DNA of 49,247 nt from NCBI RefSeq assembly GCF_001642955.1, contig NZ_LWSK01000039.1, positions 1 through 49,247 of the forward strand, read 5' to 3'. Of this stretch, positions 7,137 through 21,854 are shown piece by piece; the first letter of the stretch is position 1; each line of letters starts with the position of its first letter. Below the pieces are notes generated by a model. That model was not told where the DNA came from. It worked only from the letters and a program-made list of their open reading frames with translations, and made no database searches. The position numbers were made by a program, and so were the translations under genes. The DNA is from Rubripirellula obstinata. GTDB taxonomy: Bacteria > Planctomycetota > Planctomycetia > Pirellulales > Pirellulaceae.

Positions 7137-7865
7137 ATGAGCAAAGAAATGGTCGTGTTGCAGCGATTTTCAGATTCCGTTGCGGCTGAGACATTGCGTG
7201 GTCGTTTGGCGGTCGCCGGCATTGATACGTTCGTGCGCGGCACCAGCATCGAAACAGCGTTTGGACTTGGCGGAGCACCCACGTCCAGCGGGCTTCGGGT
7301 GGAAATTGCCAAGCGTGACGTTGACGCCGCGCTCGCGATCATGGCGGAAGACCAACGGATTCGCGAAGTCGCGGGCGATTGGATTTGCAGCCGCTGTGAC
7401 GAAGAGAATGACGCCGCGTTTGAGTTTTGTTGGAAGTGCCAAAAGGAACGCGGCCCCAACGACACCAAACAAAATCCGTCCGCACCCGAAATCAACCCCA
7501 TCGCCGCCCCAGAATCAAATGTAGCCAAATCGATCAAGCTTACGACCGCTGAAAAAGCCAATCCCTATCAGCCAGTTTTGTTGGAACCCAATGCGGCTCC
7601 CGTAGATTCGGGGGCAAACAGCAGCAGCATGATCGACGACGAAAAAATCGACGACACGATGCGAGATCTGTTTCGGTTGGCGTGTGTTTCGGTGTTGATC
7701 ATTCCCATTCCGTTGGCCCTGTATTCGGTGTACCGCGTGATGATGTTACCTGATGAATTACAGCAACATCCCCGAGTCCAATCACGACTCCGCAAGTACC
7801 TGTTTTTCTACCTACTGATTTCAACAATCGTCCTAGCATTCTGGGCCGCAATGCTATTCAGCTAA
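7137..7865 (+). CDS. DUF2007 and zinc-ribbon membrane protein
   Basis: 242 aa. The N-terminal part (about 5-75) looks like the DUF2007 signal-transducing fold (MVVLQRFSDSVAAETLRGRL). It is followed by a compact four-Cys zinc ribbon of RanBP2-like spacing (C84, C87, C98, C101: ICSRC and FCWKC). A low-complexity linker (about 105-170) leads to two C-terminal membrane segments (about 178-204 and 221-241). The function is unknown; it may be a membrane-anchored adaptor that binds protein or nucleic acid on the cytoplasmic side. It is divergent from the GspE-like gene and is followed at once by the REP array. Confidence 0.75.
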   Translation: MSKEMVVLQRFSDSVAAETLRGRLAVAGIDTFVRGTSIETAFGLGGAPTSSGLRVEIAKRDVDAALAIMAEDQRIREVAGDWICSRCDEENDAAFEFCWKCQKERGPNDTKQNPSAPEINPIAAPESNVAKSIKLTTAEKANPYQPVLLEPNAAPVDSGANSSSMIDDEKIDDTMRDLFRLACVSVLIIPIPLALYSVYRVMMLPDELQQHPRVQSRLRKYLFFYLLISTIVLAFWAAMLFS

Positions 7866-7872
7866 ACCAAGG

Positions 7873-8876
7873 CCTATGACCAAGGCCCGGCCGCTCACGC
7901 GCCAGCGGCTCACAACCTGTGAGCCGCAGGACGTAAGTCCTCGGGCCTCGTTGCGCAACTTTTCAGTTCAGAACGAAGCGATTCAGCCATGATCAAGAAC
8001 CCGGCCGCTCACGCGCCCGCGGCTCACAGATTGTGAGCCGCAGGACGTAAGTCCTCGGGCCTCGTTGCGCAACTTTCAGTTCAGAACGAAGCGATTCAGC
8101 CATGATCGAGGCCCGGCCGCTTACGCGCCCGAGGCTCACAATTTGTGAGCCGCTGGACGTAAGTCCCCGGGCCTCGTTTCGCAACTTTCAGTTCAGAACG
8201 AAGCGATCCAGTCAAGAACAAGGCCCGGCCGCTCACGCGTCGCGGCTCACAATTTGTGAGCCGCTGGACCTAAGTCCCCGGGCCTCGTTGCGCAACTTTC
8301 AGTTCAGAACGAAGCGATCCAGCCACGATCGAGGCCCGGCCGCTTACGCGCCCGAGGCTCACAATTCGTGAGCCGCTGGACGTAAGTCCTCGGGCCCCGT
8401 TTCGCAACTTTCAGTTCAGAACGAAGCGATCCAGTCAAGATCAAGGCCCGGCCGCTCACGCGCCCGCGGCTCACAACCTGTGAGCCGCAGGACGTAAGTC
8501 CTCGGGCCTCGTTGCGCAACTTTCAGTTCAGAACGAAGCGATCCAGCCATGATCAAGGCCCGGCCGCTCACGCGTCGCGGCTCACAATTCGTGAGCCGCA
8601 GGACGTAAGTCCTCGGGCCTCGTTGCGCAACATTTCAGTTCAGAACGAAGCGATTCAGCCATGATCGAGGCCCGGCCGCTTACGCGCCCGAGGCTCACAA
8701 TTTGTGAGCCGCTGGACGTAAGTCCTCGGGCCTCGGTGCGCAACATTTCAGTTCAGAACGAAGCGATCCAGGCATGATCAAGGCCCGGCCGCTTACGCGC
8801 CCGCGGCTCACAATTTGTGAGCCGCTGGACGTAAGTCCCCGGGCCTCGGTGCGCAACTTTTCAGTTAGATTCAGTC
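7873..8876. repeat. REP-like tandem array, nine units of about 112 bp
   Basis: Nine copies of a unit lie head to tail with steps of 111-113 bp, measured from the CCGGCCGC core at 7889, 8001, 8113, 8225, 8336, 8448, 8560, 8672 and 8785. Each unit contains nested palindromes: GAGGCCCGG pairs with CCGGGCCTC at the outside, GGCTCACA with TGTGAGCC inside, and AGGAC-GTAA-GTCCT beside it. A linker containing TTCAGTTCAGAACGAAGCGAT joins the units. Variants alternate (GCGCCCGCGG, GCGCCCGAGG or GCGTCGCGG; GCAGG or GCTGG). The array ends next to a RAYT transposase gene, and three more units follow that gene, as expected for a BIME. Confidence 0.92.
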
Positions 8877-8965
8877 ATGATCAAACCCCGGCCGCACATC
8901 GACCGATTCAATTTGTTAAAATACCTCATTGGTCCTGCGACGCATTTCGCGATTCGAGAACTACG

Positions 8966-9448
8966 ATGCCGAATGATCCTCTTGCGTACTTCATCACTTG
9001 GACGGTTTACGGAACGTTCCTTCCAGGCGATCCACGTTGGTGGCGGCACAAGAAACAAGGCCCATCGGCACCCGCCCGCGGTCTTGAGCAATGGTCCAAG
9101 AAACGCCTTCTCCACCCAATCAAACTGCTCTCCCCCGATGACCGAATTGTTTGCGAATCCGCCATCGACGAAATTTGCGTTTTTCGAAAATGGAAACTCT
9201 GGGCCCGATCGGCTCGAACCAACCACGTGCATGTTCTCGTAACTGCGTCGGCCAAGAAGCCAAAGTTGGTTCGTGATCAAATCAAAGCCAAATGCACTCT
9301 GGAAATACGAAATGCAAATTCTGGTTTCGTAGATCGGCCGATTTGGACGACCGGAGGCGACATCGAGTTTATCGATACGGAAGACGAGATCCGCGAATGC
9401 GAAACTTACATCAATGATGCCCAAGACCGGATGGATCGCGGTATCTGA
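8966..9448 (+). CDS. REP-associated tyrosine transposase (RAYT, Y1/HUH)
   Basis: 160 aa with the Y1-transposase (IS200-like) fold: N-terminal YFITWTVYGTFLPGDPR (8-24), the HUH metal motif TNHVHVLV with His87 and His89, and a C-terminal YINDAQ giving the putative nucleophile Tyr148 and Gln153. Such enzymes cut and join single-stranded REP hairpins. I chose the ATG at 8966 because upstream in-frame sequence lies in repeat units. The gene sits between nine REP-like units on its left and three on its right, which is strong contextual support. The key residues look intact, so it may be active. Confidence 0.9.
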   Translation: MPNDPLAYFITWTVYGTFLPGDPRWWRHKKQGPSAPARGLEQWSKKRLLHPIKLLSPDDRIVCESAIDEICVFRKWKLWARSARTNHVHVLVTASAKKPKLVRDQIKAKCTLEIRNANSGFVDRPIWTTGGDIEFIDTEDEIRECETYINDAQDRMDRGI

Positions 9449-9756
9449 ACCTCAAAACCCCGCCGCTTACGCGCCCGAGGCTCACGACTTGTGAGCCGCT
9501 GGACGTAAGTCCTCGGGCATCGTTGCGCAACTTTTCAGTTTAGAACGAAGCGATCCAGCCATGATCAAGGCCCGGCCGCTTACGCGTCGCGGCTCACAAT
9601 TCGTGAGCCGCTGGACGTAAGTCCTCGGGCATCGGTGCGCGACTTTCAGTTTGATTCAGCCATGATCGAGGCCCGGCCGCTTACGCGTCGCGGCTCACAA
9701 TTTGTGGGCCGCTGGACGTGAGTCCTCGGGCTTCGTTGCGCGACGTTTCACTTGGA
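9449..9756. repeat. REP-like array, three units after the RAYT gene
   Basis: Three further units in the same orientation, with cores near 9459, 9572 and 9673. They differ slightly from the left array (GGGCATCG for GGGCCTCG, and one GTGGGCC for GTGAGCC). The 345 bases between the transposase and the LarA-like gene hold nothing else. Confidence 0.88.
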
Positions 9757-9793
9757 ACTTGGGAATGGCACCACGAAACATGCGTTTGTTAAT

Positions 9794-11104
9794 CTAACCC
9801 AGCGGTGCTTCCCACAATCCGAGTGCTGGATTGCGGATGAAGTAGAACTCGCTGCCGTCGATGTCGGTATGGAATCCGTCGTCTAGCTTGGTGATGTCGT
9901 ACTGTTGCATCAGCAGATTGATGTCGCCGTATTGGTAGCCAACCGATTCGATTTCTTGGGCTGATAGTTTTCCGGCGGCGTAGATAACGTCAAAACGGTT
10001 TTCCGGGGATCCATGCACCAGGTGTGCTGCGGCGGATGGGTTCGCGGCAAGATCTTCGTTTTCGGCAACCAGTTTGACGACCTCTTCTTTCGTTCGGTAA
10101 CCGTACTTGCGAATCAGGCGATCGATTTCTTTGTCTTCACCAAACTCCTCGACCGCCGGTGCCAGCACTGTTAAGCGGCCGCCGGTTTGAATCGCCAAAC
10201 GCGTTCGGTAGATCGACTTGTTTCCCAACCAAGTGCTTTTGAATTCGCTTGGATCCAGGTAGGCGACAACGTGCTTGGGTGCGTGGTCCAAATGCGTGAT
10301 GTTCACCTTGCGTGCCAATTCTGCCGCTTGGAAAAACGTGTCATGATCGTCGCCAATGTACAGGCCACGAGTATGCAAGGCACCGTCAGGCATCTGCTGA
10401 ACCACGGTCAATGCGTACAGCAACGGCATCGATTGGCAGAATTGATCCTGAGCGTGATTGAGAATTTTTCGCAGCGGTGTGTCGGCTTGTCCAAGCGTTT
10501 GCTCGATCCCATAAATCGCACTCAGATAATGACTCTCGTTGATGCCTTCCACACCGCCGGTGCCAACGAACACGTTCTTGTTGTAATTCGCCATTCCGAT
10601 CACTTCGTGCGGAACGACTTGCCCGATTGAAAAGATCAAATCGTGACCACCGTCTCGCAGCATTTGATTCACTTGGGCTTTCCATGGCGAAGTGTAAACA
10701 CCACCGGTAACTTCGGAAACAAATTCGGCTGAAACTTCGCCAAGGGTCACCACATCGTCTCGCCAGTTATGCGCCCGAAACAAGTCGTGCGGAATACCGG
10801 GGAACATGTGATCAAGCTGGTCCGGTTTCATCGGGCTGTGCGTGCCAAGGGCTGGCATGATATCGGTCACCGCATCGCCCAACATTTCGTTGCTCAACAC
10901 CGTGATCTCGCCTGCTCGGCTGAACAAACGCGTCGCATCAGGAGGCAGCAATAATACCTTGTCGCGTTTGCCGATCGCGGCAAAGGTTTGTGAAAGAGCG
11001 TCGCGAAGGTCTTCGGTGGTCAGCGACGTGGACTCGTCGCCCCGAGCGTAGAAAATGGTCATGGAGGCTTTCATAGATTCCGGTAAACGATAACGGCACT
11101 TCAT
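9794..11104 (-). CDS. LarA-family nickel-pincer racemase/epimerase-like protein
   Basis: 436 aa in the lactate racemase (LarA, DUF2088) family, whose members use a nickel-pincer nucleotide to invert 2-hydroxy acids. The cofactor residues of LarA (His108, His174, Lys184, His200) have counterparts with the same spacing: His89 (ALGTHSPM), His166 (VPHEVIG), Lys176 (NYNK) and His192 (NESHY); the latter three keep the exact +10 and +16 offsets. The protein should therefore hold the cofactor, but the substrate is unknown and need not be lactate. No larB, larC or larE maturation genes are in the window. The start could be the ATG at 11104, 11074 or 11062; the third (MTIFYARGD) best fits the family N-terminus. 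Confidence 0.85.
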   Translation of the reverse strand: MKCRYRLPESMKASMTIFYARGDESTSLTTEDLRDALSQTFAAIGKRDKVLLLPPDATRLFSRAGEITVLSNEMLGDAVTDIMPALGTHSPMKPDQLDHMFPGIPHDLFRAHNWRDDVVTLGEVSAEFVSEVTGGVYTSPWKAQVNQMLRDGGHDLIFSIGQVVPHEVIGMANYNKNVFVGTGGVEGINESHYLSAIYGIEQTLGQADTPLRKILNHAQDQFCQSMPLLYALTVVQQMPDGALHTRGLYIGDDHDTFFQAAELARKVNITHLDHAPKHVVAYLDPSEFKSTWLGNKSIYRTRLAIQTGGRLTVLAPAVEEFGEDKEIDRLIRKYGYRTKEEVVKLVAENEDLAANPSAAAHLVHGSPENRFDVIYAAGKLSAQEIESVGYQYGDINLLMQQYDITKLDDGFHTDIDGSEFYFIRNPALGLWEAPLG

Positions 11105-21656: not shown

Positions 21657-21854
21657 TCGTGAGCCGCGACGCGTAAGCGGCCGGGCCTTCGTCTTTTCTT
21701 TCCTGAGCCGCGACGCGTAAGCGGCCGGGCTTTCGTCTTTTCTTTCCTGAGCCGCGACGCGTAAGCGGCCGGGCCTTCGTCCATGACTCGATTGCCTGGG
21801 TCGGAAACAAAAAAGAGCGAGACGAGGCCAAAGGACTTACGTCCGGCGGCTCAC
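21657..21854. repeat. Rearranged satellite of the REP-like family
   Basis: Three copies of one half of the REP unit (GTGAGCCGCGACGCG followed by TAAGCGGCCGGGCC) lie in tandem with a 46-bp period (21659-21781), in reverse orientation to the 7873 array. They are followed after 40 bases by the other half (AGGACTTACGTCC plus GGCGGCTCAC, 21831-21854). The halves are thus in swapped order compared with an ordinary unit. Located between manC and a convergent ligase gene. Confidence 0.82.

Follow-up and report, generated by a model that had tools for sequence, protein, structure and literature searches.

What a transposase and its repeats are to one another, when a single Y1/HUH gene lies within a dozen nearly uniform repeat units, is the question raised by positions 7873-9756 of the window (the whole stretch of 49,247 nucleotides analysed here). 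A first-pass annotation had described a RAYT gene within a 12-unit REP-like array, nine units preceding and three following the gene. This count was confirmed by the unit starts (CC[GC]GCCGCT[CT]ACGCG, at 7887, 8001, 8113, 8225, 8336, 8448, 8560, 8672 and 8785 and, after the gene, at 9459, 9572 and 9673) and by TRF, which reported 7876-8866 as period 112 with 8.8 copies and 91% matches. The unit length, given as 111-113 bp, held as a period of about 112 bp but not as a range, the measured spacing being 101-114 bp. With at most three mismatches, GGCCCGGCCGCTYACGCG matched 15 times in the window against 0.09 expected from shuffles, 12 times in the array and three times at 21670-21775, while GGCTCACA..TGTGAGCC was exact in 7 and GGACGTAAGTCC in 10 of the 12 units. 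The array sits between two convergent genes, 7137-7865 (DUF2007/zinc-ribbon protein) and 9794-11104 (lactate-racemase-N-like protein), and comprises, together with related repeats further along the window, the following features.

7875-8879 (edges approximate), plus strand: left array part, nine units, each of REP-a (minus), REP-b (plus) and a linker of about 50 nt
7920-7945, plus strand: REP-b of unit 1, TGAGCCGCAGGACGTAAGTCCTCGGG
8034, 8146, 8257 (variant), 8369, 8481, 8592, 8705, 8818, 9492, 9604 and 9705 (variant), plus strand: starts of the further REP-b copies
8224-8249, minus strand: REP-a with the exact skeleton, TGAGCCGCGACGCGTGAGCGGCCGGG
8559-8584, 9571-9596 and 9672-9697: other exact-skeleton REP-a copies, the remaining eight units having a variant one base longer
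8880-8894, plus strand: beginning of a tenth REP-a, cut short, TCAAACCCCGGCCGC, where the sister species (L044) has a complete REP-a
8966-9448, plus strand: class-3 Y1/HUH transposase (RAYT) gene, 160 aa, with NHVH (86-89), W127, Y148 and Q153, and with I70 and K109
9451-9750 (edges approximate), plus strand: right array part, three units
21660-21773, plus strand: three REP-a copies with a 44-bp period, no RAYT gene adjoining
21827-21844, minus strand: degenerate REP-b with GGACGTAAGTCC, inverted, after the three REP-a copies

In each unit two 28-nt REP subtypes, REP-a and REP-b, form an inverted pair with their 5' ends facing each other, and the linker follows. Both subtypes share the skeleton GTGAGCCGC-NN-stem-GTAA-stem-NN-CGGGC, read as TGAGCCGC-GA-CGC-GTAA-GCG-GC-CGGG in REP-a (one extra base in 8 of 12) and as TGAGCCGC-TG-GAC-GTAA-GTC-CT-CGGG in REP-b. 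The three nested palindromes first noted in each unit read as the hairpins of the two REPs and a central palindrome, CTCAC..GTGAG, formed at the junction of the two REP feet, which meet head to head. Folded as DNA, the REP-b 28-mer formed a foot, a 3-bp outer stem, a bulge, a 4-bp inner stem and a GTAA loop at -5.6 kcal/mol, a value matched by 9 of 200 shuffles. The REP-a hairpin by itself folded weakly (53 of 200 shuffles as good), and two whole units folded strongly (-29.2 with 0 of 200 shuffles as good, and -21.8 with 1 of 200). Rfam returned no match in 7800-9800, and a CRISPR-like reading of the array was set aside because the linkers are repeated as well.

The 160-aa protein has the HUH and single-tyrosine core of RAYT, and its ATG agrees with the start in the sister species. 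The gene had been called intact in His-x-His, Tyr and Gln, and it is: the motifs NHVH (86-89), W127-T and Y148....Q153 are all there, and H87, H89, W127, Y148 and Q153 were invariant in a 39-sequence alignment. Among 17 aligned sequences, H87 was found in 16 (L054 deviating) and the other four residues in all 17. T11, W12, Y15, G16, L19, G21, D22 and W26 in the N-terminal part were kept in at least 90% of the 39. Pfam Y1_Tnp scored 20.6 bits, slightly below its cut-off of 23, and was matched at E <=0.01 by 37 of the 39 aligned members; the curated NCBIfam family REP_Tyr_transpos (NF047646) gave 13.5 bits, short of its cut-off of 80. Sequence search of the PDB yielded no convincing relative (a single match, a collagen adhesin, at E 0.14), so that a fold search was needed. 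With the AlphaFold model (pLDDT 87.6), the 30 best PDB matches were ISDra2, IS608 and other Y1 transposases, and the E. coli RAYT with REP (4er8) ranked 16th. The protein fits the sparsely described class 3 TnpA_Y1 (Quentin et al. 2018) and not the GTAG RAYTs of the gammaproteobacterial type.

These fold matches speak for a first alternative, an insertion sequence of IS200/IS605 type, in which the gene would move as a whole element and the units would be its internally deleted, non-autonomous copies. Class 3 has moreover been described, in the part of the Quentin et al. account available, as possibly intermediate between classes 1 and 2 (PMC6006769). Transposed copies of the gene-bearing element were, however, not seen: the genome holds one gene of this type and no near-identical copies, its sole other RAYT being a class-3 gene (L002, contig C261) only 42% identical. 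That second gene has a REP type of its own, ATACAAGCTCGACGCGCAAGCGAGTGGGT, in inverted pairs at its flanks.

Set against these two distant genes are 162 copies of the REP pattern TGAGCCGNNNNNNGTNANNNNNCGGG in the same genome (0 for the reversed-pattern control). Stems among the first 100 places listed were CGC/GCG, GCC/GGC, GAC/GTC and GCG/CGC on one skeleton, and at least eight inverted REP pairs with gaps of 12-29 bp lay outside the array among those same places. Among 27 non-redundant copies, of which 22 were REP-a, conservation had sharp edges, at G(-1) on one side and C(+26) on the other (96% each). At sampled loci, 3 of 14 REP sites fell inside proxy genes (longest ORFs), compared with 84% of random positions. 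The copies thus show what defines REPs and REPINs, being high-copy, mostly extragenic imperfect palindromes that are partly in inverted pairs. The search of the whole genome proposed at the outset divides the unit from its parts: complete units with the GAC/GTC stem were confined to the window contig, as were all 11 occurrences of GGACGTAAGTCC, while the REPs also occur elsewhere, so that the array is local and its REPs are genome-wide. GAC/GTC REP-b was seen in the RAYT arrays of this species and of the sister species (genome G003), and the dispersed REP-b copies listed have GCC/GGC or GCG/CGC stems; among the copies listed for G003, GAC/GTC stems occurred only in the RAYT array and dispersed REP-b had GCC/GGC.

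Tandem REP-a arrays were also found away from both RAYT genes, at C1:64547-65003, C54:4953-5369, C222:161-376 and C243:45739-45970, with periods of about 74, 67, 41 and 55 bp, respectively. A second alternative is that the window array is a passive tandem repeat, made by replication slippage and surrounding a transposase gene by chance. It has in its favour these distant arrays, the tandem order of the units and their nearly constant linkers, and it is opposed by the sister species, where the orthologous gene lies in an analogous array whose linkers have diverged. That array (L182:5554-9929) contains at least 19 REP-a and at least 18 REP-b over 4.4 kb; it is interrupted at L182:7251-8732 by an ORF whose domains are of the Tn5 transposase type (Pfam Tnp_DNA_bind, Dimer_Tnp_Tn5, DDE_Tnp_1).

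The same comparison bears on the proposal that the gene was inserted at a unit start, drawn from the almost identical words at its two flanks. In G003 the left side of the gene has a complete REP-a followed by the gene leader and the right side a truncated REP-a and a REP-b, so the words are read as two REP-a starts, not as target-site duplications, and the proposal found no support. Within the 16 kb compared, no flanking gene of at least 150 aa was common to the window and the G003 array. A look for a conserved insertion site gave no empty site to compare: the neighbouring gene 9794-11104 was matched in 28 of 36 genomes (counting the own one), but 3' of it relatives showed neither a REP of the pattern nor a DUF2007 neighbour (the flank covered reached 1.5 kb at most; one GACGCGnnAGCG was present at L164, and L168 and L181 were almost without flank). 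Both results lend some support to an IS200/IS605-type element, because they imply that the whole locus may have been relocated on one or more occasions. Weighed against the many REPs per gene, the absence of near-identical gene copies in the genome and REPs that track the protein clade, such an element is nevertheless an improbable explanation.

The distribution of the REPs among related genomes follows the gene closely, though not strictly. Of 60 genomes searched (own included), 21 matched the protein. More than 7 copies of the pattern were found only in the four genomes with a RAYT of this clade (4/4, 38-303 copies), namely the own genome with 162, G003 with 105 (RAYT 77% identical), G034 with 303 (56%) and G032 with 38 (49%). 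The remaining 56 had at most 7 copies each, 48 of the 60 had none, and the control totalled 10 over all 60. An equal presence of the units in genomes lacking RAYT, named beforehand as the finding that would speak against the link, was accordingly not seen; yet eight of the 56 genomes without a RAYT of this clade carried 1-7 copies, including G001 (6) and G015 (7), which have no RAYT match at all. The pairing of RAYT with cognate REPs was supported, though not as a strict link. One GAC/GTC copy was noted in G021, a genome without RAYT match. A second REP type, GCGGNNNGGCGCTAGCC, was abundant in all three genomes with an identified RAYT of its clade (G030 with 781, G032 with 38, G017 with 13), and it also occurred in G051 (65), G014 (35) and G013 (17), where no RAYT of that clade was identified; REPs can therefore exist without the gene, or outlast it. 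A class-3 profile of 154 positions matched in 45 of 294 sampled genomes, the weaker matches of which need not be class 3.

Beyond the closest relatives, the best 80 of 260 related loci were kept from a scan of named genomes (79 planctomycete, L146 labelled only 'bacterium'). A rule for the hairpin loop had first been noticed in 18 loci, two of which (L048 and L050) are L091 and L115 of the 80. Of the 80 loci, 71 had a repeat bearing CGNNAG or its complement within 600 bp of the gene; of 77 far windows, 9 had one. Repeated 11-mers of any kind were found within 600 bp in 80/80 loci but also in 51 of the 77 far windows of 1.2 kb, so only loop-bearing repeats discriminate. A repeat flanked the gene both left and right in 71 of the 80, a count that stands without a control. 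C-GNNA-G is an unusually stable DNA tetraloop. Hairpins with this loop and a stem of at least 4 bp numbered 196 in 88.7 kb near the genes and 72 in 368 kb far from them (10- to 13-fold enrichment); among the 20 commonest loop classes listed no other exceeded about 1.7-fold, and all others together gave 261 near and 1296 far. This hairpin test detects 40 of 80 loci and misses REPs with 2-3-bp stems, for which reason the repeat-based test was added. In a hold-out of 29 loci from a phylum sample, a CGNNAG repeat was near in 25 and far in 3, or near in 24 and far in 3 of 27 once two loci already among the 80 were removed; a repeat was present on both sides in 28 of 29, and plain repeats in 23 of 29 far windows. 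Flanking REPs are thus the rule for this gene class among the loci examined. Of what had been called unusual for a planctomycete, it is the length and regularity of the array that are unusual.

The REP consensus of each locus was taken as the largest cluster of CGNNAG-centred repeats (none was obtained for 5 of 80 loci). The loop rule is thereby built into the stem-pairing, edge, foot, Mantel and residue-loop tests, and was itself tested by the near/far hairpin count, the near/far repeat count and the hold-out. Loci with fewer than two copies were dropped from the consensus set and from the all-pairs code test, and those with fewer than three from the foot analysis and the 75-pair column scan. 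In 91 distinct consensuses the stem positions paired in 97, 68 and 38% versus 77, 35 and 17% when shuffled, with slid controls reaching at most 52%, at the third pair; an outer stem in any of 9 registers was found in 89% versus 43%. An outer stem of 3 bp was present in 79 of 95 loci having at least three copies, preceded by a foot reading NNAG in 60 of the 79, NNAA in 12 and GTAG itself in 2. Certain palindromic loci allow two registers, such as L073, which was called CGCCAG and has a second cluster CGCTAG. By these sequence comparisons, a hairpin architecture with compensatory stem changes is shown. Two distant class-3 relatives, L197 and L199, have a REP consensus (two copies each) with a GTAG foot, a near-perfect stem and a GTAA loop, which makes a link to GTAG REPs possible.

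Gene and REP diverge together. Distance between REP consensuses tracked protein distance with a Mantel r of 0.637 (0 of 2000 permutations, n = 88), and with r = 0.498 (0/2000) for pairs below 60% protein identity, compared with 0.033 (n = 86) for the 20 nt just outside the REP. After deduplication, which removed the hold-out loci L186, L195, L048 and L050 (duplicates of discovery loci) and L190 (a near-duplicate of L187), and with the other hold-out loci added, r at n = 114 was 0.532 for the REP (0/2000), the 18 flanking nt giving 0.149. With growing protein identity, REP identity rose from 0.33 to 0.85 and that of the adjacent 20 nt from 0.26 to 0.35. Where a genome has two or three RAYTs, 29 of 32 directed comparisons placed the REP nearer to that of the closest protein elsewhere than to the REP of its genome mate, and REP types grouped by protein clade on a quick tree (42 of 90 inner branches open). 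Cognate pairing and co-occurrence of gene and REP are shown on this comparative evidence. The joint divergence and the loop-bearing repeats beside 71 of 80 related genes already contradict replication slippage as a full account, which leaves it very improbable; slippage probably accounts for how many units the array has, but not for the REPs.

The protein columns were scanned against four features of loop and stem. For loop base 2, residue 70 was the single perfect column in 75 pairs (two A-loop rows left out), being His in 51 of 51 C-loops and in 0 of 24 T-loops. The correspondence of His70 with C agreed in 29 of 32 hold-out pairs (25 of 28 deduplicated) and in 115 of 119 of all pairs (110 of 114 deduplicated). 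The exceptions are L200, L207 and L215, with a C-loop and no His70, and L088, with an A-loop and His70; the loop of L207 may have been misread. Asn109 corresponded to T at loop base 3 in 109 of 114 pairs (25 of 28 in the deduplicated hold-out). Mapped by Fitch on the quick tree, with columns 70 and 109 excluded from it and duplicates removed, the 7 changes of His70 all fell among the 11 branches with a change at loop base 2 (P 6e-11, against 2e-3 for the next of 146 columns), and residue 109 was the best column for T at loop base 3, with 4 of 5 changes falling on 8 branches (P 3e-6, against 4e-3 for the next column). Strongly supported branches alone left 4 independent pairs, 2.5 in the same and 0 in the opposite direction (sign test p 0.25). 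An MI scan for residues tracking the stem pairs gave nothing outstanding.

Residue 70 lies at the end of the helix preceding the HUH strands and residue 109 in the helix that follows the HUH strand (AlphaFold model), two positions past the invariant K107. We consider it rather likely, from this covariation, that residue 70 reads loop base 2 and residue 109 loop base 3 in class-3 REPtrons. In the proposed code, His at residue 70 would correspond to C, Thr, Val, Ile or Leu to T, and Tyr to A in two hold-out loci; Asn at residue 109 would correspond to T and mostly Trp or Tyr to other bases. The present protein has I70 and K109 at these two candidate positions. GAAA-loop REPs beside RAYTs with Tyr70 were seen at L213 and L214, and two further A-loops carry Asn and His at residue 70, not Tyr. 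By analogy, K82 of the E. coli enzyme would lie in the region equivalent to the helix of residue 109. As far as PMC8266576 was available, it places K82 in the DNA-binding helix alpha3, from which loop contacts are suspected, and reports loop bases as critical in group 3, with contacts only speculated on.

The locus is thus very probably a class-3 REPtron whose enzyme would read a cognate tetraloop, a reading in which we infer binding, cleavage, strand transfer and direct contacts. The gene product would be a Y1/HUH single-strand-DNA endonuclease binding a cognate 28-nt imperfect-hairpin REP, composed of a 5' foot (GTGAG here, NNAG in most relatives), a 3-bp outer stem (CCG/CGG), an asymmetric bulge, a 3-4-bp inner stem and the C-GNNA-G tetraloop. 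Tyr148 would cut beside the hairpin, probably at a CT frequently found after CGGGC and with an A3-G4 foot guide as in E. coli, and rejoin single strands, so that REPs and inverted REP pairs would be dispersed over the genome and the gene would mostly remain in place. With residues 70 and 109 reading loop bases 2 and 3, every paralogue would serve its own REP family. The 112-bp unit would be an inverted REP-a/REP-b pair (BIME/REPIN-like), presumably amplified in tandem around the gene. A further alternative is a domesticated RAYT, with the REPs serving the host (transcript ends, folding, nucleoid structure), the enzyme maintaining them and transposition rare or extinct. The mostly intergenic sites, the position of the window array between convergent genes and an association that spans the phylum sample are in line with it. 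Alone, it leaves the loop-reading covariation unexplained, which suggests a maintained protein-hairpin contact; we regard domestication as unlikely but compatible with the REPtron reading.

On how a RAYT chooses its own REP, 114 natural gene/REP pairs point to two residues and two bases. This covariation gives a candidate recognition rule open to direct laboratory test. Were so simple a two-residue code true, one or two residues could suffice to set apart the targets within a family of cognate hairpin-processing enzymes that are insulated from one another.

Literature searches, in which subscription journals are poorly covered, returned only PMC3733652 and PMC6006769 on RAYT in Planctomycetes (a weak negative), PMC6006769 as the sole relevant title among the 15 of 23 papers listed on class-3 TnpA_REP there, and none on repetitive extragenic palindromic elements in Rhodopirellula or on tyrosine transposase REP hairpin loop recognition. 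As described in the available part of PMC6006769, class 3 (24 proteins, mainly in Planctomycetes) has the motifs NHVH, W[TA] and Y----Q, the spacing of the last being related to class 1, an extended conserved N-terminal region (155-aa profile), and a gene flanked by several atypical, possibly high-copy hairpins with a 5' foot CnGA. The present system agrees with that description in the three motifs, the N-terminal region and the flanking hairpins; CCGA stands before the REP-b hairpin only if the strand opposite to the GNNA reading is taken, and does not stand before REP-a. Tetraloop, GNNA and coevolution are not mentioned in the main text of PMC6006769. Beyond the description as available there go the tetraloop rule, the inverted-pair units, the long array, the co-divergence over 88-114 loci and the two-residue/two-base covariation. 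The locus is a new member of the class-3 systems, to whose description the tetraloop signature, co-divergence and two-position covariation add, and the sequence comparisons suggest that these systems form a widespread REP system in Planctomycetota with its own hairpin signature.

With the RAYT/TnpA_REP systems of GTAG REPs (E. coli, Pseudomonas, Stenotrophomonas) the locus shares an HUH/Y1 enzyme, the REPtron layout, bulged hairpin REPs, a 5' foot ending in AG and inverted pairs. It differs from them in its foot (GTGAG/NNAG) and its C-GNNA-G loop, with no GTAG/GTGG 5' of the hairpin. It resembles IS200/IS605 elements (IS608, ISDra2) in predicted fold, in Y----Q spacing and, putatively, in hairpin recognition, but has many solo hairpins per gene and no near-identical gene copies. 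As in BIMEs and REPINs, two REP subtypes occur in inverted orientation, dispersed and in tandem; unlike in those, twelve regular units of about 112 bp flank the transposase gene itself.
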